Shown here: positions 2-10,883 of the stretch, piece by piece
How positions within the stretch are numbered: position 1 is the stretch's first letter
Layout of the letters: each line of letters starts with the position of its first letter
Assembly (NCBI GenBank): GCA_020052215.1
Contig: JAGVPN010000214.1
Location: 1-10,883, forward strand
Source: Syntrophobacterales bacterium
Lineage (GTDB): Bacteria; Desulfobacterota; Desulfobaccia; Desulfobaccales; 0-14-0-80-60-11
DNA: 10,883 nt
Direction: 5' to 3'
Position numbers and translations under genes: made by a program
The notes under the pieces: generated by a model
Database searches by the model: none
What the model was told of the DNA's origin: nothing
What the model saw: only the letters and a program-made list of their open reading frames with translations

Positions 2-460
2 GTCACCGGGGATTTGAAACACATGAGCCCCCAATGGCTCCGGGGCGCCTCCTTCACCGGCTACGGCGTGACCTTGACGGTGGGGTTGGGCATTCCCATC
101 CCCATCCTGGATGAGGAAATTATGGAGTTCGTGGCGGTCACCGACGGCGACATCATCGCGCCCGTGGTGGACTACAGCGAAGCCTACCCCAACGGCAAAC
201 CGGAGGTCCTGGCGGAAGTGACGGTGGCCCAGTTGAAAAGCGGGGAGATCTCCGTGAACGGTAAAAAGGTGGTCACCGCCGGGCTCTCCTCCTACGCCCG
301 GGCCCGGGAAGTCGCCCGGATTTTGAAAGAGTCGATTGAGAAAGGGAGCTTCTTGTTGGCCGAACCCCTGGCGCCCCTGCCGGGTCCGGATTCCGGTTAC
401 GCCTTCAAGCCCCTGAAAGAACGGCCCTATGTGCCGTCGAACCGAAACGCGGTTACCTGA
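2..460 (+). CDS. Homocysteine biosynthesis protein (DUF39/HcyBio), C-terminal part
   Basis: The frame is already open at the window edge, so this is the 3' end of a longer gene; about 152 residues are visible, ending at TGA 458-460. The segment has features I recognise from the C-terminal part of DUF39 proteins: MSPQWLRGASFTGYG, then GLGIPIPILDEEI and a VTDGDI...VVDYSEAYPNG stretch. DUF39 proteins, with a NIL-domain ferredoxin partner, have been implicated in methanogens in making homocysteine from aspartate semialdehyde and sulfide, without cystathionine or O-acyl-homoserine. The next secure gene downstream is exactly such a ferredoxin, which supports the call. The protein is expected to be cytosolic. 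The start codon and N-terminal part lie outside the window, so full length and integrity cannot be judged. Confidence 0.85.
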   Translation, partial: VTGDLKHMSPQWLRGASFTGYGVTLTVGLGIPIPILDEEIMEFVAVTDGDIIAPVVDYSEAYPNGKPEVLAEVTVAQLKSGEISVNGKKVVTAGLSSYARAREVARILKESIEKGSFLLAEPLAPLPGPDSGYAFKPLKERPYVPSNRNAVT

Positions 461-472
461 GAGATCGAAACC

Positions 473-658
473 ATGGCACCGGCCCTGAACGGAACATGGC
501 CACCAGGCGGGGTGAGGAGGATCGGCGCCCTCAGTTTAACTGACGGGGGCGGTCTTCTCGTCTGCCAGCGAAGCTCCTTGCCTCCGGTGGTGTTACCTTT
601 ACATGACTTCCGGGAATTGTTCCGGGAGAGGAGATTATCATGCCGAAAAAGAAAGTAG
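473..658 (+). CDS. Possible small ORF, unknown function (doubtful)
   Basis: A 61-codon frame lies between the DUF39 gene and the NIL ferredoxin and overlaps the ferredoxin start by 19 nt. Its middle (IGALSLTDGGGLLVCQ, then PPVVLPLHDFRELF) alternates hydrophobic and polar residues like a small beta-rich protein followed by a helix. An internal GTG at 512 could be an alternative start. Against it, there is no clear Shine-Dalgarno before ATG 473, codon use is mixed, and I recognise no family. It may simply be the spacer of the DUF39-ferredoxin operon. Confidence 0.2.
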   Translation: MAPALNGTWPPGGVRRIGALSLTDGGGLLVCQRSSLPPVVLPLHDFRELFRERRLSCRKRK

Positions 659-1050
659 TCTTAAACTTTCCGCCCCACCTCATCGATCAGCCCATTACCT
701 ACCGTCTGATTAAGGATTACGGCCTGGTGGTCAACATCTTGAGGGCTCGCATCACTCCCCAGGAATGGGGGAGTATGGTATTGGAGTTGGGGGACGGCAA
801 CGACCGGTTGGCTGAGGCCGTGGCCTTTCTCACGGAATTGGGGGTGGGGGTGGAACCTCTCTCCAAAGAAGTGCGCTGGCACGAGGAGCGCTGTATTCAC
901 TGCACCGCCTGCACCGGCCCCTGTCCCACCCAGGCGCTGGCGGTGGCCGACCCCCACAGCATGACCGTTTCCTTCGACCAAGAGCGCTGCATTGCCTGTG
1001 AGCTCTGCCTGCCGGTGTGTCCCTATCAGGCCGTAGAGATATGTTTTTAA
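640..1050 (+). CDS. NIL-domain 2x[4Fe-4S] ferredoxin, homocysteine pathway partner
   Basis: This 136-residue protein has two parts. Residues about 1-78 resemble the NIL domain, the small ferredoxin-fold domain also found at the C-terminus of the MetN methionine transporter ATPase. Residues 84-136 form a bacterial-type ferredoxin with two cluster motifs: C85-x2-C88-x2-C91-x3-C95-P and C117-x2-C120-x2-C123-x3-C127-P. NIL ferredoxins next to DUF39 proteins are linked to sulfide-dependent homocysteine synthesis, where the ferredoxin may supply electrons or take part in sulfur transfer. The start at 640 is preceded by GGGAGAGGAG at good spacing. It lies 179 nt after the DUF39 stop, on the same strand, so the two are probably co-transcribed. 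It should be cytosolic, and all eight cluster cysteines are present. Confidence 0.9.
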   Translation: MPKKKVVLNFPPHLIDQPITYRLIKDYGLVVNILRARITPQEWGSMVLELGDGNDRLAEAVAFLTELGVGVEPLSKEVRWHEERCIHCTACTGPCPTQALAVADPHSMTVSFDQERCIACELCLPVCPYQAVEICF

Positions 1051-1087
1051 CGATCCCTGTTGGTTAGCATTTCCACCCCCACCGTAA

Positions 1088-1110
1088 CCCTCCCCCATCA
1101 AGGGGGAGGG
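1088..1110. repeat. Perfect 9-bp palindromic hairpin, REP-like
   Basis: CCCTCCCCC and GGGGGAGGG pair perfectly around the loop ATCAA, 38 nt after the ferredoxin stop. No U-tract follows (AATAAATCGC), so it is not a classical intrinsic terminator. It resembles the dispersed C-rich/G-rich palindromes common between genes in many bacteria, and could still protect the 3' end or slow transcription. Copy number cannot be judged from this window. Confidence 0.5.
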
Positions 1111-1194
1111 AATAAATCGCTTTGGTTATAGTCGATAGTTCATTAAAGATCCATTCATGGAGTCGTTAATTAAAAAACAACATCTAGTGGGTAC

Positions 1195-1230
1195 GGGAGT
1201 CAACCGGATACTCCCAATAAAAATTTTTTT
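1195..1230 (+). terminator. Weak terminator-like hairpin with T-run
   Basis: GGGAGT (1195-1200) pairs with ACTCCC (1210-1215) around a 9-nt loop, and seven T residues follow at 1224-1230. The 8-nt A-rich gap between stem and T-run and the short stem make it a poor intrinsic terminator. Its place just upstream of a candidate promoter would suit insulation of the next operon. Confidence 0.25.
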
Positions 1231-1242
1231 GGTTATGCGCTC

Positions 1243-1270
1243 TTGACATTAATCTATAGCTGGTTAATAT
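1243..1270 (+). promoter_or_regulatory. Candidate sigma-70 promoter of the sulfur/Fe-S operon
   Basis: A perfect -35 hexamer TTGACA sits at 1243-1248. The best-spaced -10 is TAATAT (1265-1270, 16-bp spacer, 4 of 6 matches); a perfect TATAAT at 1270-1275 is 21 bp away, too far for the same -35. The surrounding 150 bp are strikingly AT-rich compared with the flanking genes. Downstream, TGGTGG (1280-1285) can pair with CCACCA (1295-1300) just ahead of the AAGGAGAG ribosome binding site. The operon encodes an Rrf2 regulator, so autoregulation here is likely (inference), but I could not identify a clear IscR-type operator. Confidence 0.5.
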
Positions 1271-1318
1271 ATAATGAAGTGGTGGTTTATGGCTCCACCA
1301 ACCCGAAGGAGAGAACAA

Positions 1319-1585
1319 ATGCGGTTCTTGACCGAATGTAAGGCGGATGCCACCGCGGACCTGGTTTATCGCGCCTGCCCCATGCACCTCCTGGAGCCGA
1401 TGGAGTTAATTAAAGACCTGGAGCCGGGTCAGGTGTTGGAAATTTTGACCGACTACGACGGCGCCCTGGAAGACATCCCGGCCTGGTGCGCCAAACACGG
1501 GCAAGAATTTTTGGGCATCAGTGAGGATGCCTGCGGCGATTGTTATAAGCTCTACATTAAAAAGATTTGCGAGGAAAAGTCATGA
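1319..1585 (+). CDS. TusA-like sulfur carrier protein, variant active site
   Basis: An 88-residue protein with the TusA/SirA fold signature. The active-site cysteine C20 is followed by Pro (ACPMHLLEPMELI), then comes LEPGQVLEILTDYDGALEDIPAWCAKHGQEFLG, matching the usual pattern of the family. TusA proteins carry persulfide sulfur from a desulfurase to acceptors. Here the usual CPxP is CPMH, so the second proline is lost. The protein carries extra cysteines (C7, C57, C72, C75, C84), including a C-terminal CGDC, that TusA does not need. I chose ATG 1319 because AAGGAGAG precedes it at good spacing; an in-frame ATG at 1274 lies inside the promoter region. The stop overlaps the next start (ATGA), which points to translational coupling with the NifS-like gene and a shared role in sulfur relay. 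Confidence 0.8.
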   Translation: MRFLTECKADATADLVYRACPMHLLEPMELIKDLEPGQVLEILTDYDGALEDIPAWCAKHGQEFLGISEDACGDCYKLYIKKICEEKS

Positions 1586-2772
1586 AACGAGCCTATATGG
1601 ATCACGCCGCGGCTACGCCGGTGCGCCCCGAAGTCCTGGAAGCCATGCTGCCTTTCTTTGTCGAACGTTTCGGCAATCCCTCGGCGGTGTACGATCTTGG
1701 ATCGGAAATCAAAGCGGTCATGGAAGAGCAGCGGGGGAAGGTGGCCCGGCTCATTGGGGCTCAAGTCGGTGAGATTATCTTCACCTCCTCCGGCGCCGAA
1801 GCCAATAATCTGGCCATCAAGGGATTGGCCCAGGCTACTTTTTTGAAGAGAGGGAGACACCTGATTGTTTCGGGCATCGAGCATCACTCGGTGCTCAACT
1901 CGGCCAGATTCCTGGAGAAGTTTTTCGATTTTGAAGTAACCTTCCTGCCGGTGGACCAGTACGGACGGGTTGATCCGGAACGTCTTAAGCAGGCCCTCAC
2001 CCCGGCCACGGTCATGGTTTCCATCGGTCACGGCAGCAACGAGATCGGCACGATCCAGGATATCCCAGAGCTGGTGGCGGTGTGTCGGGCGGCGGGAGTT
2101 CCCTTTCATACTGATGCCGTGGCTACCGTGGGCCAGGTGCCGGTGGAGGTAAAAGAGCTGGGCGTCGATTTGTTAACTATTTCGGGGGCGGCTCTGGGAG
2201 CGCCCAAAGGGATCGGGGCCTTGTATTTTCGCAATAAACTGCGCCTGGTGCCCCAGCTCAACGGCGGCATTCAAGAAAACGGCAGGCGGGGCGGCACGGA
2301 GAACATCCCCGGCATCGTGGGCTTAGGCAGGGCGGCGGAGTTAGCCTGGCAGGAGTTGGATGAGAAAGCGGTCTATTTGGCGAAGCTGAGGGACCTTTTA
2401 ATCGCCGGAGTCCGGAAGAATGTGCCCGAGGTCCTTTTTACCGGCCATCCGGACAAGAGACTGCCGGGGCATGCCAGTTTCTGCTTTGAAGGCATTGAAG
2501 GTGAAGCCTTGATTTTCCTGTTAAGTAGCCAGGGGATCTATGGCAACACCGGGTCCGCCTGCGCCTCCAAGGCCTTAAAAACCTCGCCGGTCCTGGGCGC
2601 CATCGGCATCAAGCCGGACGTGGCCCAGGGGTCCATGGTTTTTACCCTGAGTGGCGCTAACCGGGAAGAAGAGGTGCAGCATGTTTTGAAGCACCTGCCC
2701 CCGGCAGTAGAAAAACTCCGTTCCTTCTCCCCCGTCTGGCGGAAGAAGATGGCCGCAGGATCAGGAGCCTAA
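1582..2772 (+). CDS. nifS: NifS/IscS-like protein lacking the PLP lysine
   Basis: A 396-residue protein with the full fold of class V aminotransferase-like cysteine desulfurases. It begins YMDHAAATPV and contains FGNPSAVY, EHHS (H101), SNEIGT (N153), TDAVATVG (D178), GGIQENGRRGGTENIP and the active-loop cysteine C327 in TGSACAS. Several cofactor residues are replaced. The motif that is SGHKxxGPKG in E. coli IscS is SGAALGAPKG here, so His205 and the Schiff-base Lys206 are A203 and A204. The PLP-phosphate Thr of GATE is A72, Gln183 is A181, and the Arg of RFSLGR is V353. Ordinary PLP-dependent desulfurase activity is therefore unlikely. From memory, Archaeoglobus fulgidus IscS also lacks this lysine and its C-terminal tail is similar. 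C327 could still carry a persulfide to IscU, encoded two genes on. GAGG precedes ATG 1582, which overlaps the upstream stop. The frame is intact, so it is not a decayed gene. Confidence 0.9.
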   Translation: MKRAYMDHAAATPVRPEVLEAMLPFFVERFGNPSAVYDLGSEIKAVMEEQRGKVARLIGAQVGEIIFTSSGAEANNLAIKGLAQATFLKRGRHLIVSGIEHHSVLNSARFLEKFFDFEVTFLPVDQYGRVDPERLKQALTPATVMVSIGHGSNEIGTIQDIPELVAVCRAAGVPFHTDAVATVGQVPVEVKELGVDLLTISGAALGAPKGIGALYFRNKLRLVPQLNGGIQENGRRGGTENIPGIVGLGRAAELAWQELDEKAVYLAKLRDLLIAGVRKNVPEVLFTGHPDKRLPGHASFCFEGIEGEALIFLLSSQGIYGNTGSACASKALKTSPVLGAIGIKPDVAQGSMVFTLSGANREEEVQHVLKHLPPAVEKLRSFSPVWRKKMAAGSGA

Positions 2773-2774
2773 AC

Positions 2775-3221
2775 ATGAAGCTCTCCACCAAAAGCCGCTA
2801 TGGCACCCGGCTCATGATGGACATGGCCCTGCACTATAATCAGGGGCCGGTGCAGTTGGGAGACATCGCCAAACGCCAGAATATCTCCGTTAAGTACCTG
2901 GAGCAGATCATCATCCCCTTGAAAAAGGCCAATTACGTGGAGAGTGTGCGGGGGCCTAAAGGGGGACACGCACTGACCAGGCCGCCTGAAGAGATCACGG
3001 TGGGAGAAATCGTGGCCCTGCTGGAAGAGGGAGCCACCCTGGCGGAATGCACCGAGCACTCCGAGGTGTGCGAGCGTTCGCCTACCTGCCCCACCCGCCT
3101 GATTTGGAAGGAGGCGGCCAAGGCCATGTTTGACAAGCTGAATACCATTACGCTGGCTGACTTGCTGCATCAGGGCCAGGCCCCGGCAGGAGGAGCCCAG
3201 GAGTTGCGCCATGTACTCTGA
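2775..3221 (+). CDS. Rrf2-family (IscR-like) transcriptional regulator
   Basis: A 148-residue Rrf2 protein. The N-terminal winged helix opens MKLSTKSRYGTRLMMDMA, followed by the recognition-helix segment ISVKYLEQIIIPLKKA and the wing VESVRGPKGGHAL. A cysteine triad C92-x6-C99-x5-C105 follows, the usual site for a [2Fe-2S] or [4Fe-4S] cluster in IscR, NsrR and relatives. IscR's fourth ligand, a His three residues after the last Cys, is Arg here (CPTR), as in many non-Proteobacterial Rrf2 proteins. GGAG precedes ATG 2775, two bases after the nifS-like stop, and its 3' end overlaps iscU by 11 nt. By position it is the probable cluster-sensing repressor of its own operon, acting near 1243-1270 (inference). 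Confidence 0.92.
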   Translation: MKLSTKSRYGTRLMMDMALHYNQGPVQLGDIAKRQNISVKYLEQIIIPLKKANYVESVRGPKGGHALTRPPEEITVGEIVALLEEGATLAECTEHSEVCERSPTCPTRLIWKEAAKAMFDKLNTITLADLLHQGQAPAGGAQELRHVL

Positions 3222-3630
3222 GATTGTGATGGATCATTTCACCAATCCCCGCAATGCCGGGGTTATCGAGGACGCCGACGGCGTAGGCGAAGTGGGCAAC
3301 CCCCAGTGCGGCGATATGATGACTTTTTATATCAAGGTCAAGGACGACACCCTGGTGGACGTGAAGTTCCAAACCTTCGGCTGTGTGGCGGCCATTGCCG
3401 TGTCCAGCCTGGTGAGTGAAATGGCCAAAGGCAAGAAGCTGGACGAAGCTCAACAGATTACCCGGCAAGGGGTAGCCCAGGCCCTGGGCGGCCTCCCCCC
3501 AAACAAGATGCACTGCTCCAACCTGGGGGCCGAGGCGTTGTCCCTGGCCATCAACAATTACCAGGAAAAGAAAGGCGGCGCCGCCGCCTCGCCAACCCAC
3601 GGAAATCAGGAGAGTGAGGTTAACTCATGA
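3211..3630 (+). CDS. iscU: IscU/NifU-N Fe-S cluster scaffold protein
   Basis: A 139-residue scaffold protein on which Fe-S clusters are assembled. It opens with MYSEIVMDHFTNPRNAG, and all cluster ligands are present: C33 and D35 in PQCGD, C58 in TFGC, and C102 in the KMHCSNL motif after GGLPP. The usual GCGSAIA/GCGAAIA is GCVAAIA here, a Gly-to-Val change beside C58. The last 20 residues are a Gly/Ala/Ser-rich tail beyond the domain. Because the scaffold looks functional while the neighbouring NifS-like protein lacks its PLP lysine, sulfur may reach it from sulfide, from a TusA-like carrier or from another desulfurase (inference). The start lies within the end of the Rrf2 gene, with an AGGAGG-type site upstream, and its stop overlaps the HdrC start (ATGA). 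Confidence 0.93.
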   Translation: MYSEIVMDHFTNPRNAGVIEDADGVGEVGNPQCGDMMTFYIKVKDDTLVDVKFQTFGCVAAIAVSSLVSEMAKGKKLDEAQQITRQGVAQALGGLPPNKMHCSNLGAEALSLAINNYQEKKGGAAASPTHGNQESEVNS

Positions 3631-4226
3631 GCCAGGTTCAGCCTCTCGTTCAAGAAATTGTGATCCCGGATAGGGTTAAGGCCGACAATCCGAGGCAATC
3701 ATTGGCCGCCGAGGTCGCGGAGCGCAGCGGCACCGAGCTCAACCGCTGTTACCAGTGCCGGAGCTGCGGCAACGGCTGCCCCTTTGTCCAGGCCATGGAC
3801 TATACCCCCAACCAGGTGATCCGGCTGGTGCAATTCGGCCTGCGCCAGGAAGTGCTCACCTGTAAGACCATTTGGGTTTGCGTGGGCTGCCACACCTGCT
3901 CCAGCCAATGCCCCATGGGCATTGACCTCGCCGCGGTGATGGACACCTTACGCCTCATGGCGGTGGAAGCGGGCGTGGTCATCGGCAAACCCAACATCAT
4001 TGATTTCCACGAAGAGGTGCTCAGGTCTTTGGAAAAATACGGCCGGGCCCATAAGCTGGGCATCATGCTGGGTTATAAAAGGCAGACCGGGCGCTGGCTG
4101 AAGGACCTGGACCTGGGTCTGAGGATGCTGGCCAAACGCAAACTGGATCTTATACCCTCACGGGTGCGCGATGCCAATAAGGAAATCGCCGACCTATTCA
4201 CCTGTTATTGGAGAGAATCGGCATGA
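3627..4226 (+). CDS. hdrC: HdrC-like 2x[4Fe-4S] protein
   Basis: A 199-residue protein with two closely spaced cluster motifs in the HdrC arrangement: C41-x2-C44-x2-C47-x3-C51-P and C85-x2-C88-x2-C91-x3-C95-P, separated by the helical YTPNQVIRLVQFGLRQEVL segment. HdrC passes electrons between clusters of the HdrA flavoprotein and HdrB in heterodisulfide reductase-type complexes. The C-terminal 100 residues (HEEVLRSLEKYGRAHKLG and on) are helical and match HdrC. No membrane segment is visible, so this is the soluble type. Start and stop both overlap neighbours by four bases, locking it between iscU and hdrB. No hdrA gene is present here, so its electron donor is unknown. Its place in an Fe-S assembly operon suggests a role in electron delivery or thiol/disulfide chemistry (inference). 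Confidence 0.9.
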   Translation: MSQVQPLVQEIVIPDRVKADNPRQSLAAEVAERSGTELNRCYQCRSCGNGCPFVQAMDYTPNQVIRLVQFGLRQEVLTCKTIWVCVGCHTCSSQCPMGIDLAAVMDTLRLMAVEAGVVIGKPNIIDFHEEVLRSLEKYGRAHKLGIMLGYKRQTGRWLKDLDLGLRMLAKRKLDLIPSRVRDANKEIADLFTCYWRESA

Positions 4227-5080
4227 GCGACGTGAAACCACAGGACTTCTCTTATTTTCCGGGCTGCTCCCTGGCCACCACTGCGGCGGAGAGCAACCGC
4301 TCCCTGATGCAGGCGGCCCGGATCTTGGGCCTCAACTTGATTGAACTGGAGGATTGGAACTGCTGCGGTTCCTCCTCGGCCCAGACCATGTGCAGGAACC
4401 TGAGCCTGGGGATGGCGGCCCGGAACCTGTCTTTGGCCCCGGCGGGGCGACCCCTGGTGGCCATGTGCCCCAGGTGTCTCCATTACCTGCGGTCGGCCCA
4501 GCAGTGTTTGCAGGCTGACCCGAAGACCCGGGCGGCCCTGGAAGAAAAGTGGGGCCGCCCCATTTCCACTGACCTGGAAATCATCCACTTTATGGAGGTT
4601 CTGGTGCGATACGGCCTGGACCGCCTCAAGGCCAACGCCCGCCGCAGCCTGAAGGGCCTGAGGTTTGTTCCCTACTATGGCTGCACCCTGGCTCGACCGC
4701 CGCGCCTGGCCAAGGAGACATACTTTCAGGGTGAAATGGAACACATCCTCACGGCCCTGGGGGCCGAGGCCGTGCCCGACGCTCTCATGTACCGCTGTTG
4801 CGGGTCGTTTCTTTCGGCCACTGATCCGGAGATCGTCACGCCCCTGGTGCAGGAGATTATCGGCAGCGCCGTGGCCGCCAAGGCGGACTGCCTGGTCACC
4901 GCCTGCGCCATGTGCCAGCTCAACCTGGAGATTCGCAACACCAACAGGGCCAAAATTCCCATTTTTCACTTTTCGGAAATCCTGGCCCTGGCTTTGGGGG
5001 CCGACGATTACGAGGAGTGGTTCGTCCGGCATCTGGTGGACCCGCGCCCGGTGATTCAGAAACTTTCCAAGGCGGCTTGA
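4223..5080 (+). CDS. hdrB: HdrB-like protein with two complete CCG domains
   Basis: A 285-residue HdrB-type protein with both cysteine-rich CCG domains intact: C15 (FPGC), C47-C48-G, C82-x2-C85; and C154 (YYGC), C192-C193-G, C228-x2-C231. In methanogen HdrB these motifs hold two noncubane [4Fe-4S] clusters that reduce the CoM-CoB heterodisulfide. In bacteria the natural substrate is usually unknown. ATG 4223 is preferred over an in-frame TTG at 4208, because GGAGAG lies upstream and the four-base overlap with the hdrC stop matches the other couplings in this operon. The pairing with hdrC shows a two-subunit module; with iscU and the NifS-like gene upstream, a disulfide, persulfide or cluster-linked substrate is possible (inference). 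The protein is cytosolic, with no signal peptide. Confidence 0.92.
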   Translation: MSDVKPQDFSYFPGCSLATTAAESNRSLMQAARILGLNLIELEDWNCCGSSSAQTMCRNLSLGMAARNLSLAPAGRPLVAMCPRCLHYLRSAQQCLQADPKTRAALEEKWGRPISTDLEIIHFMEVLVRYGLDRLKANARRSLKGLRFVPYYGCTLARPPRLAKETYFQGEMEHILTALGAEAVPDALMYRCCGSFLSATDPEIVTPLVQEIIGSAVAAKADCLVTACAMCQLNLEIRNTNRAKIPIFHFSEILALALGADDYEEWFVRHLVDPRPVIQKLSKAA

Positions 5081-5138: not shown

Positions 5139-6161
5139 GTGAACCAGGACCCCTATTCGGGCGTGTTTGATCTGAGAGGTTCCCTGAACAAAAGCATGCT
5201 GGTAAGCTTCACCAGCTTTCTGGCAATTTGTGTCGTCGCCGTAATGGCGCTGGGGGCCAACGGTTGCAGCCGAGACTCGGACCAAGTCACGGTGGATTTT
5301 TCCAAGACCCTGCCCGTAGCGCGGCCCACACATCACGCCGGCGAGGCGGGCGCCCTCCGAGGAGCGGTGGCGGCCATGATCTCCCCCCGGGAGACCTTTA
5401 TCCATTACCGGCAACTCCTGGCTTATCTGGCCAAGAAGTCGGGAAAAGACCTGGAGTTCGTACAGCGCAAGACCTATGAGGAGATTAATGAACTTTTGGG
5501 GAAAGGGGAGATCGACCTGGCCTTCATCTGTTCGGGTCCCTATGCCTCGACCAAGGCCCGTTACGGCTTCGTTCCCCTGGCCGTCCCGGAGGTCCAAAGG
5601 AGCACCTCCTACCGGGCGTATTTGATTGTCAACCAAGACAGCCCCTTCAACAAGCTTCAAGACCTCAAGGGTCAGACCTTTGCCTTCACCGACCCCGACT
5701 CCAACACCGGCAAGCTGGTTCCCACCTTCTGGTTGGCCGAACTGCACCAGCGGCCTGAGACCTTCTTCAAGCAAATTATTTACACTTACAGCCATGACAA
5801 CTCTATCCTGGCGGTGGCTCGGGGTCTGGTGGCGGGGGCGACGGTAGACGGCTTGGTATGGGAATATTACCAGGCCACTAACCCCGTTTTTACTTCTAAG
5901 ACCCGAATCATTAAAAAGTCCGAAGCCTATGGCATCCCACCCCTGGTGGCATCCCGGCAGCTCCCGGCGGCAGAACGGGAGCGGCTTCAACAGACCTTGT
6001 TAGCTATGCACCGGGACCCGGAGGGAAAGAAAATCCTGGCCGAGCTCCTGATTGACCGCTTCCTGCCCTTACAGGAAAAATGGTATGAGCCGATCCGGTC
6101 CATGCAACGGGACCTGGCCCACCTCAAGGAACAGCCGCATGCTCCTGAGCCTCAAAAGTAA
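5139..6161 (+). CDS. PhnD-type periplasmic substrate-binding lipoprotein
   Basis: A 340-residue phosphate/phosphonate-binding-like (PhnD/TorT-like) protein. The N-terminus holds positive residues (R13, K18), a hydrophobic stretch (MLVSFTSFLAICVVAVMAL) and a lipobox-like GANGC with C43 as the likely lipidated residue. The box is imperfect, with Ala at -3. Family landmarks follow: FIHYRQLLAYLAKKSGKDLEF, GEIDLAFICSGPYASTKARYGF, the hinge RAYLIVNQDSPFNKLQDLKGQTFAFTDPDSNTG and a C-terminal VDGLVWEY segment. No ABC permease or ATPase is nearby, and the next gene, which it overlaps by 23 nt, encodes a membrane sensor-activator. It therefore probably presents a ligand to that sensor rather than serving import (inference). 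GTG 5139 is chosen for the GGAGG upstream and because it supplies the charged n-region; ATG 5196 is the alternative. Confidence 0.8.
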   Translation: MNQDPYSGVFDLRGSLNKSMLVSFTSFLAICVVAVMALGANGCSRDSDQVTVDFSKTLPVARPTHHAGEAGALRGAVAAMISPRETFIHYRQLLAYLAKKSGKDLEFVQRKTYEEINELLGKGEIDLAFICSGPYASTKARYGFVPLAVPEVQRSTSYRAYLIVNQDSPFNKLQDLKGQTFAFTDPDSNTGKLVPTFWLAELHQRPETFFKQIIYTYSHDNSILAVARGLVAGATVDGLVWEYYQATNPVFTSKTRIIKKSEAYGIPPLVASRQLPAAERERLQQTLLAMHRDPEGKKILAELLIDRFLPLQEKWYEPIRSMQRDLAHLKEQPHAPEPQK

Positions 6162-8325
6162 GCTTCTGGCCACCATTTCAGCCATCGTCATCCTGACCGG
6201 CCTGGCCATCGCCGGCATCGTCACCCAGAGATACAGCGGCGCCCTGCGCCAGGAGATAATGGGCCAGTCGAAGGACCTGGCGCACGGCATCGCCCTGGAT
6301 GCCGCCGAGCGGATTCTGATCAACGACCTGGTGGGGCTCCAGAAGATGCTGGACCAACAGCGCCGCATTCACCCTGCCCTGGCTTATCTGTTCATCCTCA
6401 AAGATGGGCAGGTTTTGGCTCATACGTTCGATCAAGGGGTACCTACCGGCTTACGGGAAGCCAACCAGCCGATTTCCCCGGCTCAGCCCGGCTTTCGGCA
6501 AGTCGTCTCGCAAAAGGGGGACCACTACCTGGATACCGCTTTACCCATCTTCGAAGGCAAGGCGGGAATTTTACGCCTGGGATTTTCCGAAAGCCGTTAC
6601 CGGACCCAGTTGGTCAAGCTCTGGGGGGAGATCGGTGCAATAACTTTGGGACTACTTTTGCTGGCGTTATGCGGCGGTTTATTATTTGTCCGGCGCATTG
6701 CCCGGCCTTTGGCGGCGCTGGTGGCGGCCACGAGAGAGATTGATCAGGGAAAGTCAAATGTCCAGGTGGAGGTGACGGGCAAGGATGAAATTGCCACCTT
6801 GTCGGTTTCCTTTAACCAGATGGTGTCCCGCCAGGAGGAATATACCTGTCGTCTGGAAGAGCAGACCCTGGAACTGGAGCGGGCTTACGGTCAGGCCCGG
6901 GCCGCCTGCCAGATCGTGCAGGAGGTGGGAGCGCTTTACACCTTGAAGGAGATAGGTCGATTTTTACTCAAAAAGCTTCGGGAGGCCATCCTTTGCCCCC
7001 ACATTGCCTTGATAGTTTTGAATAGCTCCCAGGATACGGTTTTTGTATTATCCGAGGAGGAAGGCGTCAACATATTCCGGGATCCCCCGGTGGTTAAGGC
7101 GGCCCGGGACGCCTTGGGGAGCTTGACGATCAGCAGTCTCCCCCGGGAATTGGCTCAAAAACTTCCGGGTATCACGCCCGATTTTTCCACTGCGGGGTAC
7201 CAGGCCCTCATTCCCTTTTCGGACAATCACATCCGGGGCGCGGCTGTTATCGCCTGTCCTGACTGCTTGCACACCAACTCCGAGCAGATGCAGTGGATAG
7301 GGCTGGTCCTCAAACAGAATGCCGGGGCCTTGGGAAGGGCTATGTTACATGAAGAAGCGATGGGCAGCCTCAAAGGCCGGGTCGAGGCCCAGGCCGGTTT
7401 CGGCGAAATCATCGGCAAAGACCCCAAGATGCAGGTGGTGTATAAGCTCATTGAAGACGTGGCCTCCTCCGACGCCACCGTCCTGATTCAAGGGGAAAGC
7501 GGCACCGGCAAGGAATTGGTGGCCCGGGCCATCCACCGCTTGAGCTCCCGTCAGGGCAATCCCTTCGTGGTGATCAACTGTTCGGCCTACCCTGCGACCC
7601 TTTTGGAAAGCGAACTCTTCGGACACGAAAAGGGGGCCTTTACCGGAGCGATGCGTCAAAAGCCGGGACGCTTCGAGCTGGCCGACGGCGGTACGGTATT
7701 CCTGGACGAGATCGGCGAGATTCCCCCGCCGGCCCAGATAAAACTACTCCGAGTGTTGCAAACCCGCAAATTTGAACGGGTGGGGGGAGAAAAGACCCTG
7801 ACCGTGGACGTCCGCGTCTTGGCGGCCACCAATAAGGACTTGATGCAGGAGGTGGCCCGGGGAAACTTCAGAGAGGACCTGTTCTACCGCCTCAACGTTA
7901 TTCCTCTTATTCTGCCCCCTTTACGGGATCGCAAAAACGATATCCCTTTGCTGGCCCTCCACTTCCTCAGACGTTTCGCGCAGGAGCGGGGCAAGGACCT
8001 CCGGGAGATCAGTTCCGGAGCCATGCGGCTGCTGCTGGATTATTCCTGGCCCGGTAACGTCAGAGAACTGGAGAATTCCGTTGAACATGCCGTTGTCCTG
8101 GCCAAGAGCAGTCAATTGGAGGCCTGGGATTTCCCCTCAGCCCTCCATCACCCCTCTCCAAGCTTTCCTTCCACTATTGCCGATCAGGAACTTAGTCTGT
8201 TACTGAACATTTTGGAAGAATGCGGCTGGAATAAGAAATTGGCGGCCCAGCGCCTGGGAATCAGCCGCAGCACCGTATACGCCATCCTCAAGAGACATAA
8301 GATCTCCAAACCCACGACTCACTGA
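6139..8325 (+). CDS. Membrane-bound sigma-54 activator (sensor-HAMP-GAF-AAA+-Fis)
   Basis: A 728-residue one-component regulator. A transmembrane segment lies at about residues 9-27, then a periplasmic sensor of about 135 residues (Cache-like, with HPALAYLFILKDGQVLAHTF). A second transmembrane helix spans 165-187, a HAMP domain and coiled coil about 185-265, and a GAF-like region about 265-410. The AAA+ sigma-54 domain has Walker A GESGTGKE (452-459), GAFTGA (499-504), Walker B VFLDE (D523-E524) and the NVREL segment. A Fis-type helix-turn-helix follows at 698-719. There is no receiver domain, so the signal must come through the membrane, probably helped by the PhnD-like lipoprotein just upstream. 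ATG 6139 is chosen because AAGGA precedes it and it starts directly before the first membrane helix; longer in-frame starts lie inside the previous gene. A matching -24/-12 promoter at 8625-8641 is the likely target. Confidence 0.92.
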   Translation: MLLSLKSKLLATISAIVILTGLAIAGIVTQRYSGALRQEIMGQSKDLAHGIALDAAERILINDLVGLQKMLDQQRRIHPALAYLFILKDGQVLAHTFDQGVPTGLREANQPISPAQPGFRQVVSQKGDHYLDTALPIFEGKAGILRLGFSESRYRTQLVKLWGEIGAITLGLLLLALCGGLLFVRRIARPLAALVAATREIDQGKSNVQVEVTGKDEIATLSVSFNQMVSRQEEYTCRLEEQTLELERAYGQARAACQIVQEVGALYTLKEIGRFLLKKLREAILCPHIALIVLNSSQDTVFVLSEEEGVNIFRDPPVVKAARDALGSLTISSLPRELAQKLPGITPDFSTAGYQALIPFSDNHIRGAAVIACPDCLHTNSEQMQWIGLVLKQNAGALGRAMLHEEAMGSLKGRVEAQAGFGEIIGKDPKMQVVYKLIEDVASSDATVLIQGESGTGKELVARAIHRLSSRQGNPFVVINCSAYPATLLESELFGHEKGAFTGAMRQKPGRFELADGGTVFLDEIGEIPPPAQIKLLRVLQTRKFERVGGEKTLTVDVRVLAATNKDLMQEVARGNFREDLFYRLNVIPLILPPLRDRKNDIPLLALHFLRRFAQERGKDLREISSGAMRLLLDYSWPGNVRELENSVEHAVVLAKSSQLEAWDFPSALHHPSPSFPSTIADQELSLLLNILEECGWNKKLAAQRLGISRSTVYAILKRHKISKPTTH

Positions 8326-8676: not shown

Positions 8677-9069
8677 ATGAAAAAACCGGGTGTGCTGGTG
8701 GTGGCGGGCGACAGGGGACCTGGCCTTGAAGTTTGTTCGCTGCTGCAAGAGTTGGATTATCCCGCCGCCCTCATCAGTTCCCTTAAGGATCTGGAACAGG
8801 AGATTAAAAAGGATGCCGAGGTCGCGGTGATCCTGGATTTGGATACTGTGCCCTTAAATACCCAGTTTCTCCGGGGTTTGAGGAAGATGCACCCCCATCT
8901 GCACCTGTTGGGGATTTCCGAGCTGTCGTATCACCCTGGATTAGAAGAAGTTATCGGCTCCCACCTTCTGGCCTGTTTGGTTAAGCCATTGGATGTGGAG
9001 GAACTCTGCTTCTGGTTAAAGAGTATCGGCGAACATCTGGCTAATCCGGTGGGAGAGGCCGAGGGATGA
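8677..9069 (+). CDS. Stand-alone response-regulator receiver domain protein
   Basis: A 130-residue protein that is a single CheY-like receiver domain with no output domain. D54 in VILDLDTVP is the likely phosphoacceptor, S81 in GIS is the conserved Thr/Ser, and K103 in LVKPLD is the conserved Lys. The acidic pair at the end of the first strand is degenerate (VVAGDRG, only D12), so metal binding and phosphorylation may be weakened. It is the first gene behind the -24/-12 promoter, with GGGGAAAGG upstream of ATG 8677, and is followed 40 nt later by the SQR gene. No histidine kinase gene is in the window. It may relay or modulate a signal governing the operon (inference). Confidence 0.75.
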   Translation: MKKPGVLVVAGDRGPGLEVCSLLQELDYPAALISSLKDLEQEIKKDAEVAVILDLDTVPLNTQFLRGLRKMHPHLHLLGISELSYHPGLEEVIGSHLLACLVKPLDVEELCFWLKSIGEHLANPVGEAEG

Positions 9070-9109
9070 ATCGGTTCAGCCTTACAAAGTTATCAAGGAG
9101 GATTTGGGA

Positions 9110-10387
9110 ATGAAGAAACTGGTTGTGTTAGGGCATGGGACGGGCGGCACCATCATTGCCACCAAGATGCGTCAGAGACTGCCCGAGTCCCAGTGGTCAA
9201 TCACCGTCATCGACAAAGACTGGCAGCATCACTACCAGCCCGGTTGGCTTTTCATCCCCTTCGGCATTTACACCAAGGAAGATTGCATCAAACCCAAGAC
9301 CAAGTTTGTTCCTCCCGGGGTCAATCTGGTGCTGGATGAGATCTTGGGGATTGATCCGGACAAGAAAGAGGTCAAGACCAAGCGGGAGACCTTCCCCTAT
9401 GACTGGCTGGTGATCGCCACCGGCTGTCGCATCGTTCCCGAAGAAGTGGAAGGCCTGATCGACGGTTGGGGTCAGGACATCCACAATTTTTACACCCTGG
9501 AAGGGGCCCTGGCTCTCCGGGAGAAGCTGAAGTACTTCGAAAAAGGCCGGGTGGTGGTGAACATCGCTGAACTGCCCTTCAAGTGCCCGGTGGCCCCTCT
9601 GGAGTTCGCCTTCATGTCGGATTGGTTTTTCGGCATCAACGGCGTCAGGGACAAAATTGAGATTGAGCTGGTGACGCCCCTCTCCGCGGCTTTCACCAAA
9701 CCGGTGGCTGCGGAAATCCTGGGCAATATTTGCAAAGAAAAGAACGTCAAGGTGACCCCCAACTTCCAGCTAGCCCAGGTGGACTCAGAAAAAAAGGTCA
9801 TCAAGTCCTACGGCGGCGAAGAAGTTCCTTATGATCTCCTGGTCTCCATTCCTCCCAATTTCGGGGCCCAATGCATCATCGACAGCGGCATGGGCGACCC
9901 TATGGGCTACATGGACACGGATAATTTTACCCTGAAAGCCAAGAAATACGATTCCATCTATGTCATCGGCGACGCCGCCAATGTTCCCACCTCCAAGGCC
10001 GGGGCCGTAGCCCACTACGAGGCCGACGTGGTGGCGGACAACCTGATGCGGGAGATCGACGGGCAACCGCCCCGGCCGGATTATGACGGACACGCCACCT
10101 GAATGGTGGTGACGGGTTACGAGAAGGGGTCCCTTCTCGACTTTAATTACAAAATCGAACCGCTGCCGGGCAAATTCCCCTTCCCGGGCATCGGGCCTCT
10201 TGATCTCTTGGGGGTCACCTTTTCCAACTACGTTGGCAAGATGATGTTCCGCTGGGTTTATTTCAACATGATGCTCAAGGGCAGCCACCTGCCCCTGGAG
10301 TCCCAGTTCGTCCTGGCCGGCAAGATACGGGGCATCCTCTCTCCCGATATTGAAATGCCGCTGCGGAGCAAAAGGAGAAGGCCATGA
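9110..10387 (+). CDS. sqr: Sulfide:quinone oxidoreductase, apparent selenoprotein (Sec331)
   Basis: An FAD protein oxidising sulfide and passing electrons to membrane quinone. It begins MKKLVVLGHGTGGT (FAD Rossmann motif) and contains YQPGWLFIPFGIY, VIATGCRIVPEE (C106), KCPVAPLEF (C159), TPLSAAFTKP and VIGDAANVPTSKAGAVAHYEA. Reading by the standard code stops at TGA 10100-10102 after DGHAT, giving 330 residues. The same frame continues to 10387 with GYEKGSLLDFNYKIEPLPGK and FRWVYFNMMLKG, the normal C-terminal region of the family. The TGA falls exactly where relatives have Cys in DGHANCFIE. C159 and residue 331 correspond to the redox pair Cys160/Cys356 of Acidithiobacillus SQR, so the TGA most likely encodes selenocysteine, giving a 425-residue protein; a hairpin follows it. 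ATG 9110 has AAGGAGG eight bases upstream. The alternative, a nonsense mutation or sequence error, fits the hairpin less well. Confidence 0.85.
10100..10102 (+). other. In-frame TGA, probable selenocysteine codon
   Basis: TGA interrupts the SQR frame between DGHAT and MVVTGYEKG. Aligned with the remembered family pattern DGHANCFIESGFGKG, the stop occupies the conserved catalytic cysteine column with no gap on either side. Cys TGC/TGT to TGA is a one-base change, the usual Cys/Sec relationship. The ATG right after it would let an automatic caller split the gene in two. Confidence 0.8.
10120..10139 (+). promoter_or_regulatory. Putative bacterial SECIS hairpin
   Basis: C-GAGAAGG pairs perfectly with CCTTCTC-G (8 bp) around the tetraloop GGTC at 10128-10131. 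The loop starts 25 nt after the TGA, within the 16-37 nt range given for bacterial SECIS elements, and begins with G as required. Its GGUC matches the core of the E. coli fdhF SECIS loop (AGGUCU), which SelB binds. I see no clear bulged U below the stem. The hairpin lies inside coding sequence (YEKGSLLD). Confidence 0.75.
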
Positions 10388-10883
10388 CCAACGATCTGAT
10401 TCTAGAACGCCTTGAACGCCTGGAGGAAAAGCTTGATCGGGTCACCGCCAGCCAGGAACAGTTATCACCTTTTCTCAGGTCCTATGAAAACCTGAGCGAC
10501 CTGGGGCGAGACCTGTCGCTCTTGATGGGCCCCGGCGCCAGGTTGCTCACCGAAGAACTGGGGGAAGTGGAGACGGCGTTTCAAATCGAGGATGCCCTCG
10601 CTCTCTTCAAAAAGCTCCTCCTCAGTTTCCGGCATATTACCTGGTCTCTGGAGAAGATGGAGAACCTCATCGACTGGTGGCAGGACATGGAGCCCCTCCT
10701 GAAAATTGCGGTTCCCCATCTTATCGACAAACTGGATGATTTGGAGCAAAAGGGCATCTTCCGCATCAATTCGGCCGTCCTCGGCATGTACACCAAGCTA
10801 GCTTCGGCTTATACGCCCGAGGATGTCGAGGTTATCGGCGACGGCTTCGTGCGCATGCACGGCATCGTCAAGAAGTTTGCCGA
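10384..10883 (+). CDS. DUF1641 family protein, N-terminal part
   Basis: ATG 10384 overlaps the SQR stop (ATGA), has AAAGGAGA upstream, and opens a frame of 166 codons that runs off the window end. The N-terminus is a short coiled coil (LILERLERLEEKLDRV), followed by helical segments including DLSLLMGPGARLLTEELGEVE, LEKMENLIDWWQDMEPLLK and FRINSAVLGMYTKL, with no cysteines visible. This matches my memory of DUF1641 proteins, which occur beside SQR-like and formate dehydrogenase genes. The function is not established; translational coupling to the SQR implies a role with it, perhaps in assembly or membrane docking (inference). Length and C-terminus cannot be judged. Confidence 0.75.
   Translation, partial: MTNDLILERLERLEEKLDRVTASQEQLSPFLRSYENLSDLGRDLSLLMGPGARLLTEELGEVETAFQIEDALALFKKLLLSFRHITWSLEKMENLIDWWQDMEPLLKIAVPHLIDKLDDLEQKGIFRINSAVLGMYTKLASAYTPEDVEVIGDGFVRMHGIVKKFA

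Follow-up and report, generated by a model that had tools for sequence, protein, structure and literature searches.

Cys201 and Cys379 form the catalytic pair of human sulfide:quinone oxidoreductase (SQOR), whose cycle is set out in the available text of PMC11039317: sulfide opens a Cys379-S-S-S-Cys201 bridge, a persulfide on Cys201 interacts with FAD, and a persulfide on Cys379 donates its sulfur to an acceptor; Cys379 then completes the cycle. A predicted selenium-containing version of this enzyme has already entered print and the databases. The available part of a 2026 review (PMC13188914) has a table that lists a selenoprotein SQR family with the motif HxxU and a reference (number 65) tied by the review's text to deep-Sep; the deep-Sep paper itself (mSystems 2025, PMC12013277), in its available sections, predicts for two Desulfosediminicola species a selenoprotein termed "NAD(P)/FAD-dependent oxidoreductase" and gives Cys homologues and SECIS-like structures for it. 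NCBIfam holds the model NF049943, named "type III sulfide quinone reductase, selenoprotein subtype." In a literature search made without bioRxiv preprints and most subscription papers, the review and the deep-Sep paper, as far as the available text of each goes, were the only ones among the publications consulted to name this selenoprotein; the accessible text of a 2022 review (PMC9312934) contains no word beginning with "quinone." The same search found no description of a purified selenium-dependent SQR and no experimental demonstration of selenium in the SQR treated here or in a related one. A preliminary description of the locus, made from the DNA alone, was not aware of SQR among the well-known bacterial selenoprotein families, and this hint of novelty has to be withdrawn, the family being present in NCBIfam and in print. 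Selenoprotein SQR is already predicted and catalogued, and the gene considered here is a well-supported further member, not a discovery.

The window (the whole stretch of 10,883 nucleotides that was analyzed, from a Syntrophobacterales draft genome) carries an SQR-family gene in which an in-frame TGA at a conserved redox cysteine is very probably read as selenocysteine (Sec), aided by a hairpin downstream (Table 1). Translated with TGA as Sec, the frame gives 425 residues followed by a terminal TGA stop at 10385-10387; the TGA at residue 331 is the sole internal stop, and AAGGAGG lies eight bases upstream of the ATG. The sequence HATU at residues 328-331 matches the HxxU motif of the review table. 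The single interrupted frame of 426 codons in the preliminary description is thereby borne out, that count including the stop, and so is its expectation that standard annotation would truncate such a gene: nine of the 120 database matches listed are 330-residue proteins with 83-96% identity to the window protein, and one of these short database entries, P0011, ends exactly ahead of codon 331.

Table 1. Features at the SQR locus, in window coordinates, with the evidence for each
Feature	Position	Strand	Evidence
Likely ribosome-binding site, AAGGAGG	9095..9101	+	Read in the sequence
SQR-family gene, 425 residues with Sec331 (predicted)	9110..10387	+	NF049943, 668.3 bits; human SQOR sequence and fold matches
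Cys106 codon (TGT)	9425..9427	+	Cys in 59/80 related loci, including 14/14 TGA loci
Cys159 codon (TGC), partner cysteine, aligned with human Cys201	9584..9586	+	Cys in 80/80 related loci; alignment
TGA, predicted Sec331 codon, aligned with human Cys379	10100..10102	+	TGA 14, TGT 35, TGC 30, unreadable 1 of 80 loci
Predicted SECIS hairpin, 8-bp stem and GGTC loop	10120..10139	+	Exact in 26/26 TGA rows, 0/76 Cys rows; -12.6 kcal/mol
Partner gene of unknown family, 5' part (overlaps SQR stop; cut by window end)	10384..10883	+	Homologue in place after 25/25 TGA rows

Assignment to the SQR group draws on several comparisons. The window protein clears the curated cut-off of NF049943 (525 bits) and matches Pyr_redox_2 at 50.8 bits. 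Human SQOR is found by sequence with E values of 1e-49 to 3e-50, in an alignment that spans residues 4-391 of the query, across the TGA. In the human chain, residue 331 is aligned with the Cys in TSCPLVTGY, and the human cysteines aligned with residue 331 and Cys159 stand 178 residues apart, the same distance as 201 and 379; the earlier placement of the TGA at the second redox cysteine of SQR, with Cys159 as partner, agrees with this. A structure predicted with Cys put at position 331 (pLDDT 79.3, pTM 0.80) likewise has human SQOR as its best fold match (PDB 6oi5, 6oi6; TM-score 0.81). Both catalytic positions align, although identity is only about 28%, and the human enzyme has Cys where the window protein has its predicted Sec and Gly at the place of Cys106. 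The label "type III" is the NCBIfam name. The nearest solved structure is that of the human enzyme, which we take to be a type II SQR. Sulfide:quinone activity is assigned to the window protein by homology only. The family name needs some care in the databases, too: P0072 and P0111 are full-length entries of 412 residues that NCBI names "selenoprotein subtype," and column 331 is an invariant C in the alignment that includes them. With Cys where Sec is predicted in the window protein, these two show that the NCBI name by itself does not imply Sec.

The codon at position 331 was followed through a scan of the genome collection, which returned 155 relatives of the window protein. Among the best 80 of these the counts are as tabulated, the single unreadable locus being cut before the codon; no codon besides TGA, TGT and TGC occurs in the 79 readable loci, a result far from chance, and no TAA or TAG lies within the aligned part of the 14 TGA loci. 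An alignment column of Cys or TGA was what the preliminary description had proposed to look for, and random stops in close relatives were what it thought would count against a selenoprotein; the column is Cys or TGA in 79 of 79 readable loci. These data bear directly on the idea of a pseudogene in decay, or of a sequencing error at the TGA. The draft is indeed fragmented (514 contigs, 72.8% complete), and P0002, a protein 94% identical to that of the window, has Cys at 331. Against this, the same TGA recurs in 14 of the 79 readable loci, from separate assemblies, it is always accompanied by the hairpin, and outside the hairpin the fixed residues vary synonymously, as they do under selection on protein. 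Independent TGA genes largely refute decay or error, which we consider the least probable of the readings weighed here.

A sample of 395 genomes from the phylum was also examined, 30 of them with a match at E <= 1e-80. The TGA-bearing matches listed there all come from the window's own family, and the 17 loci newly fetched in that sample (L134-L150) have TGC or TGT at codon 331. Sec forms extend beyond these 395 genomes, as the Desulfosediminicola genes in print show. By their published description, as far as it is available, the latter resemble the present gene in the HxxU motif (here HATU), in having Cys homologues and in a SECIS-like structure, the window protein standing over the family cut-off of NF049943; they differ in coming from another lineage.

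Downstream of the TGA the RNA can form CGAGAAGG-GGTC-CCTTCTCG, with 25 nt between the TGA and the loop. The constraints on bacterial SECIS elements in the available text of PMC13188914 are a loop of 3-9 nt, a stem of 4-16 bp, a G in the first two loop bases, a distance of 16-37 nt from the TGA and an energy of at most -7.5 kcal/mol; the GGTC loop, the 8-bp stem, the spacing and the energy (calculated over 30 nt) all fall within these limits. The exact 20-base element separates the two kinds of gene completely, being present in every TGA row (26 rows, representing 18 distinct genes) and in none of the Cys rows; it is also present in 7/7 TGA loci added at a later stage, six of them duplicates of genes already counted. 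Constraint is visible at the nucleotide level: among the 18 distinct TGA genes, seven of the eight fixed-residue codons from +6 to +13 show no variation at any of their three bases, as against 6/76 in the rest of the 130-codon stretch, and so the RNA itself is apparently under selection. Mean fold z is -2.14 in the 18 distinct TGA genes versus -0.45 in 73 distinct Cys genes. Fold energy was rejected as evidence in its own right, since 9 of 200 shuffles fold equally well and the hairpin ranks, at best, 22nd when the gene is cut into 1245 windows of 30 nt. A stem that does not differ between any of the 26 TGA rows offers no covariation, and pair-counting was left aside. No Rfam family was found in the window at gathering thresholds, which says little on SECIS elements.

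The hairpin also bears on whether the TGA is a true stop, with translation restarting at the ATG at 10103 to give a two-piece protein. That ATG directly follows the TGA and opens a frame of 94 residues. It is not kept, however: the codon after the TGA is CTG in 8 and ATT in 2 of the 26 TGA rows. A restart would moreover leave the hairpin and its synonymous invariance without a role, and the break would split the redox motif. We regard this arrangement as very improbable.

Decoding as Sec calls for the corresponding machinery, which the preliminary description had suggested seeking in the genome. The draft (2.83 Mb) has matches over cut-off to selA (570.3 bits), selB (365.9 bits) and tRNA-Sec, the product of selC (74.7 bits; anticodon tca by ARAGORN). 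On selD the search came up short: in this draft, at its stated completeness, none is over cut-off, and the best match reaches 51.1 bits against a required 125. Absence from an incomplete draft is weak evidence against a selenoprotein. Among the 29 genomes of the order, 28 have selB and 25 have selD over cut-off. Each of those 25 has at least one selD copy with one in-frame TGA, and SelD is probably itself a selenoprotein there, to judge from these reading frames.

Read-through of the TGA by other means, for example by tRNA-Cys or tRNA-Trp with selenium uninvolved, would suit the Cys found in the relatives' column, since inserted Cys would preserve the enzyme. The genome, though, encodes tRNA-Sec, selA and selB; a SECIS-like hairpin marks the TGA genes and is missing from the Cys genes; and the gene's own end is an ordinary TGA stop. 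We consider this kind of decoding as improbable as a restart. The TGA/Cys column, the hairpin with its nucleotide-level constraint and the presence of selA, selB and tRNA-Sec together back the original suggestion that the SQR is a selenoprotein.

On the favored reading, SelB, bound to the hairpin, would supply the Sec-tRNA and so place Sec at residue 331. By analogy with human SQOR, Sec331 would take the role of Cys379 and carry the outgoing sulfane sulfur, while Cys159 would work with FAD; the resting bridge may then be Cys159-S(n)-Se-Sec331, and FAD would pass the electrons of sulfide on to the quinone pool. Selenols are better nucleophiles and better leaving groups. A selenenyl-sulfide bridge of the kind proposed in the preliminary description might change the rate or the reversibility of the reaction.

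A selenoprotein whose main reaction is something other than sulfide oxidation with quinone, whether the reverse direction, polysulfide or another persulfide, is unlikely, if a good deal less so than the readings that dispense with selenium. Function here is assigned by homology only, and flavocytochrome c and type II NADH dehydrogenases have the same fold; genes for TusA, a class V aminotransferase (cysteine desulfurase type) and Hdr-like proteins lie in the neighborhood, and a module of molybdoenzyme, Fe-S and NrfD subunits lies downstream in the related loci L018 and L020. Yet SQRs are the best matches by both sequence and fold, both catalytic cysteine positions are conserved, and the NCBIfam family is named for SQR.

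The surroundings of the gene deserve description in their own right. The ATG of the partner gene lies within the last codons of the SQR gene, and its homologue follows SQR in all 25 TGA rows compared and in most Cys rows above 56% identity. No Pfam or NCBIfam family is over cut-off for this gene (10384-10883 of the window; L018:7272-8114). Several labels were tried and dropped: "DUF1641" (14.8 bits, cut-off 21), "RR" for 8677-9069 (no family matched), and PsrA/B/C, for which the best models were TtrA and TtrB, both far below their cut-offs. Positions 14-5080 hold a run of sulfur and Fe-S genes: the C-terminal piece of a homocysteine-biosynthesis gene, a NIL-ferredoxin, TusA, the class V aminotransferase, a NifU-like scaffold and Hdr-like subunits; 2775-3221 is a candidate IscR gene. 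This neighborhood fits sulfur transfer. Between it and SQR, 5139-8325 encodes a phosphonate-type substrate-binding protein and, after it, a sigma-54 activator that has HAMP and sCache domains; this sensor-like pair is kept in L018-L020. In L018 (8348-13063) and L020, 3' of SQR and the partner gene, come genes for an Fe-S subunit, for a membrane subunit of NrfD type (PF03916, 68.8 bits) and for a molybdopterin subunit (545 bits to the TtrA model, below its cut-off of 1750); the window ends ahead of the position matching this module. Gene order around SQR shows long synteny only in close relatives and in L034/L118, many of the compared loci being too short to show it, and for this reason no selenium-linked meaning is claimed for the neighborhood.

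The relationship between the Sec and Cys forms was addressed with a maximum-likelihood tree of 89 distinct proteins (17 of them Sec), with column 331 masked and the root not inferred by the program; fragments (L065, L119, L120), rows with identical proteins, P0002 and L134-L157 stayed out of it. All 17 Sec rows fall in a single clade of 21 rows (support 100/100), within which four Cys rows are nested. The Sec/Cys label needs two changes on this tree, and the starred branches force two. Because the surrounding clades are Cys, the most economical account, in a tree whose root was not inferred, is a single gain of Sec followed by a single return to Cys. One of the nested Cys genes, L033 from Desulforhabdus sp. 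TSK, still has the hairpin, altered at a single base so that a G-U pair results, and the same stretch occurs in L136; in L022, L025 and L031 the hairpin is absent. A nested Cys clade with a relic hairpin points to reversion from Sec to Cys, and from tree and relic together we infer a single origin of Sec from Cys in this clade, with at least one later loss. P0002 is perhaps a second return. According to the available text of PMC13188914, Sec-to-Cys changes are rare and recorded mainly in FdhA and SelD, and a figure legend in the available part of a 2006 paper (PMC1794560) shows that FdhA and a HesB-like protein, in their Cys versions, have remnants resembling SECIS elements.

A different kind of Cys gene occurs beside the Sec form. 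In the order, 19 of the 29 genomes have a match over the NF049943 cut-off, and seven carry a full-length Cys copy together with a full-length TGA copy (G005, G012, G013, G014, G016, G018, G019); G015 has fragments of both. The codon itself was read in the Cys copies and in the TGA copy of each of the seven. Only Cys copies are over cut-off in four genomes (G001, G002, G024, G025) and only TGA copies in eight (G000, G007, G008, G009, G011, G017, G020, G021), and in the window's genome the single copy over cut-off is the TGA one. The contig and whole-genome sets overlap, so their counts were kept apart, not summed; weak matches below 150 bits, L099-L100 among them, were excluded. Eight Cys paralogues (L101-L108) resemble the Sec form in being over the NF049943 cut-off and in having a homologue of the same partner gene downstream; they differ in their TGC/TGT codon, in lacking the hairpin, in their 66-69% identity to the window protein and in forming their own group in the tree, separate from the Sec clade. 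A mixed bin could account for one such pair but hardly for all, given that three genus codes are represented among the seven genomes, whose estimated contamination is 1-6%.

We advance, tentatively and with somewhat more doubt than conviction, the proposal that selenium has split the SQR of this order into two working isoenzymes: a Sec form with one origin from Cys, kept beside a separate Cys paralogue in 7/29 genomes, and later returns to Cys with a fossil SECIS in Desulforhabdus. The paired isoenzymes and the fossil SECIS are possibly new additions. A further Sec-to-Cys change with a relic SECIS would be useful given the rarity stated in the available text of the 2026 review. On the practical side, database entries for genes of the predicted Sec-SQR kind are still truncated to 330 residues. 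Sulfur metabolism has SQR as one of its central enzymes, and paired Sec and Cys copies, together with near relatives that have reverted to Cys, would amount to a natural experiment on selenium in persulfide chemistry. NiFeSe and NiFe hydrogenases are a parallel pair that serves different supply; if the proposal is true, the two forms of SQR would, in the same way, suit different supplies of selenium or sulfide.
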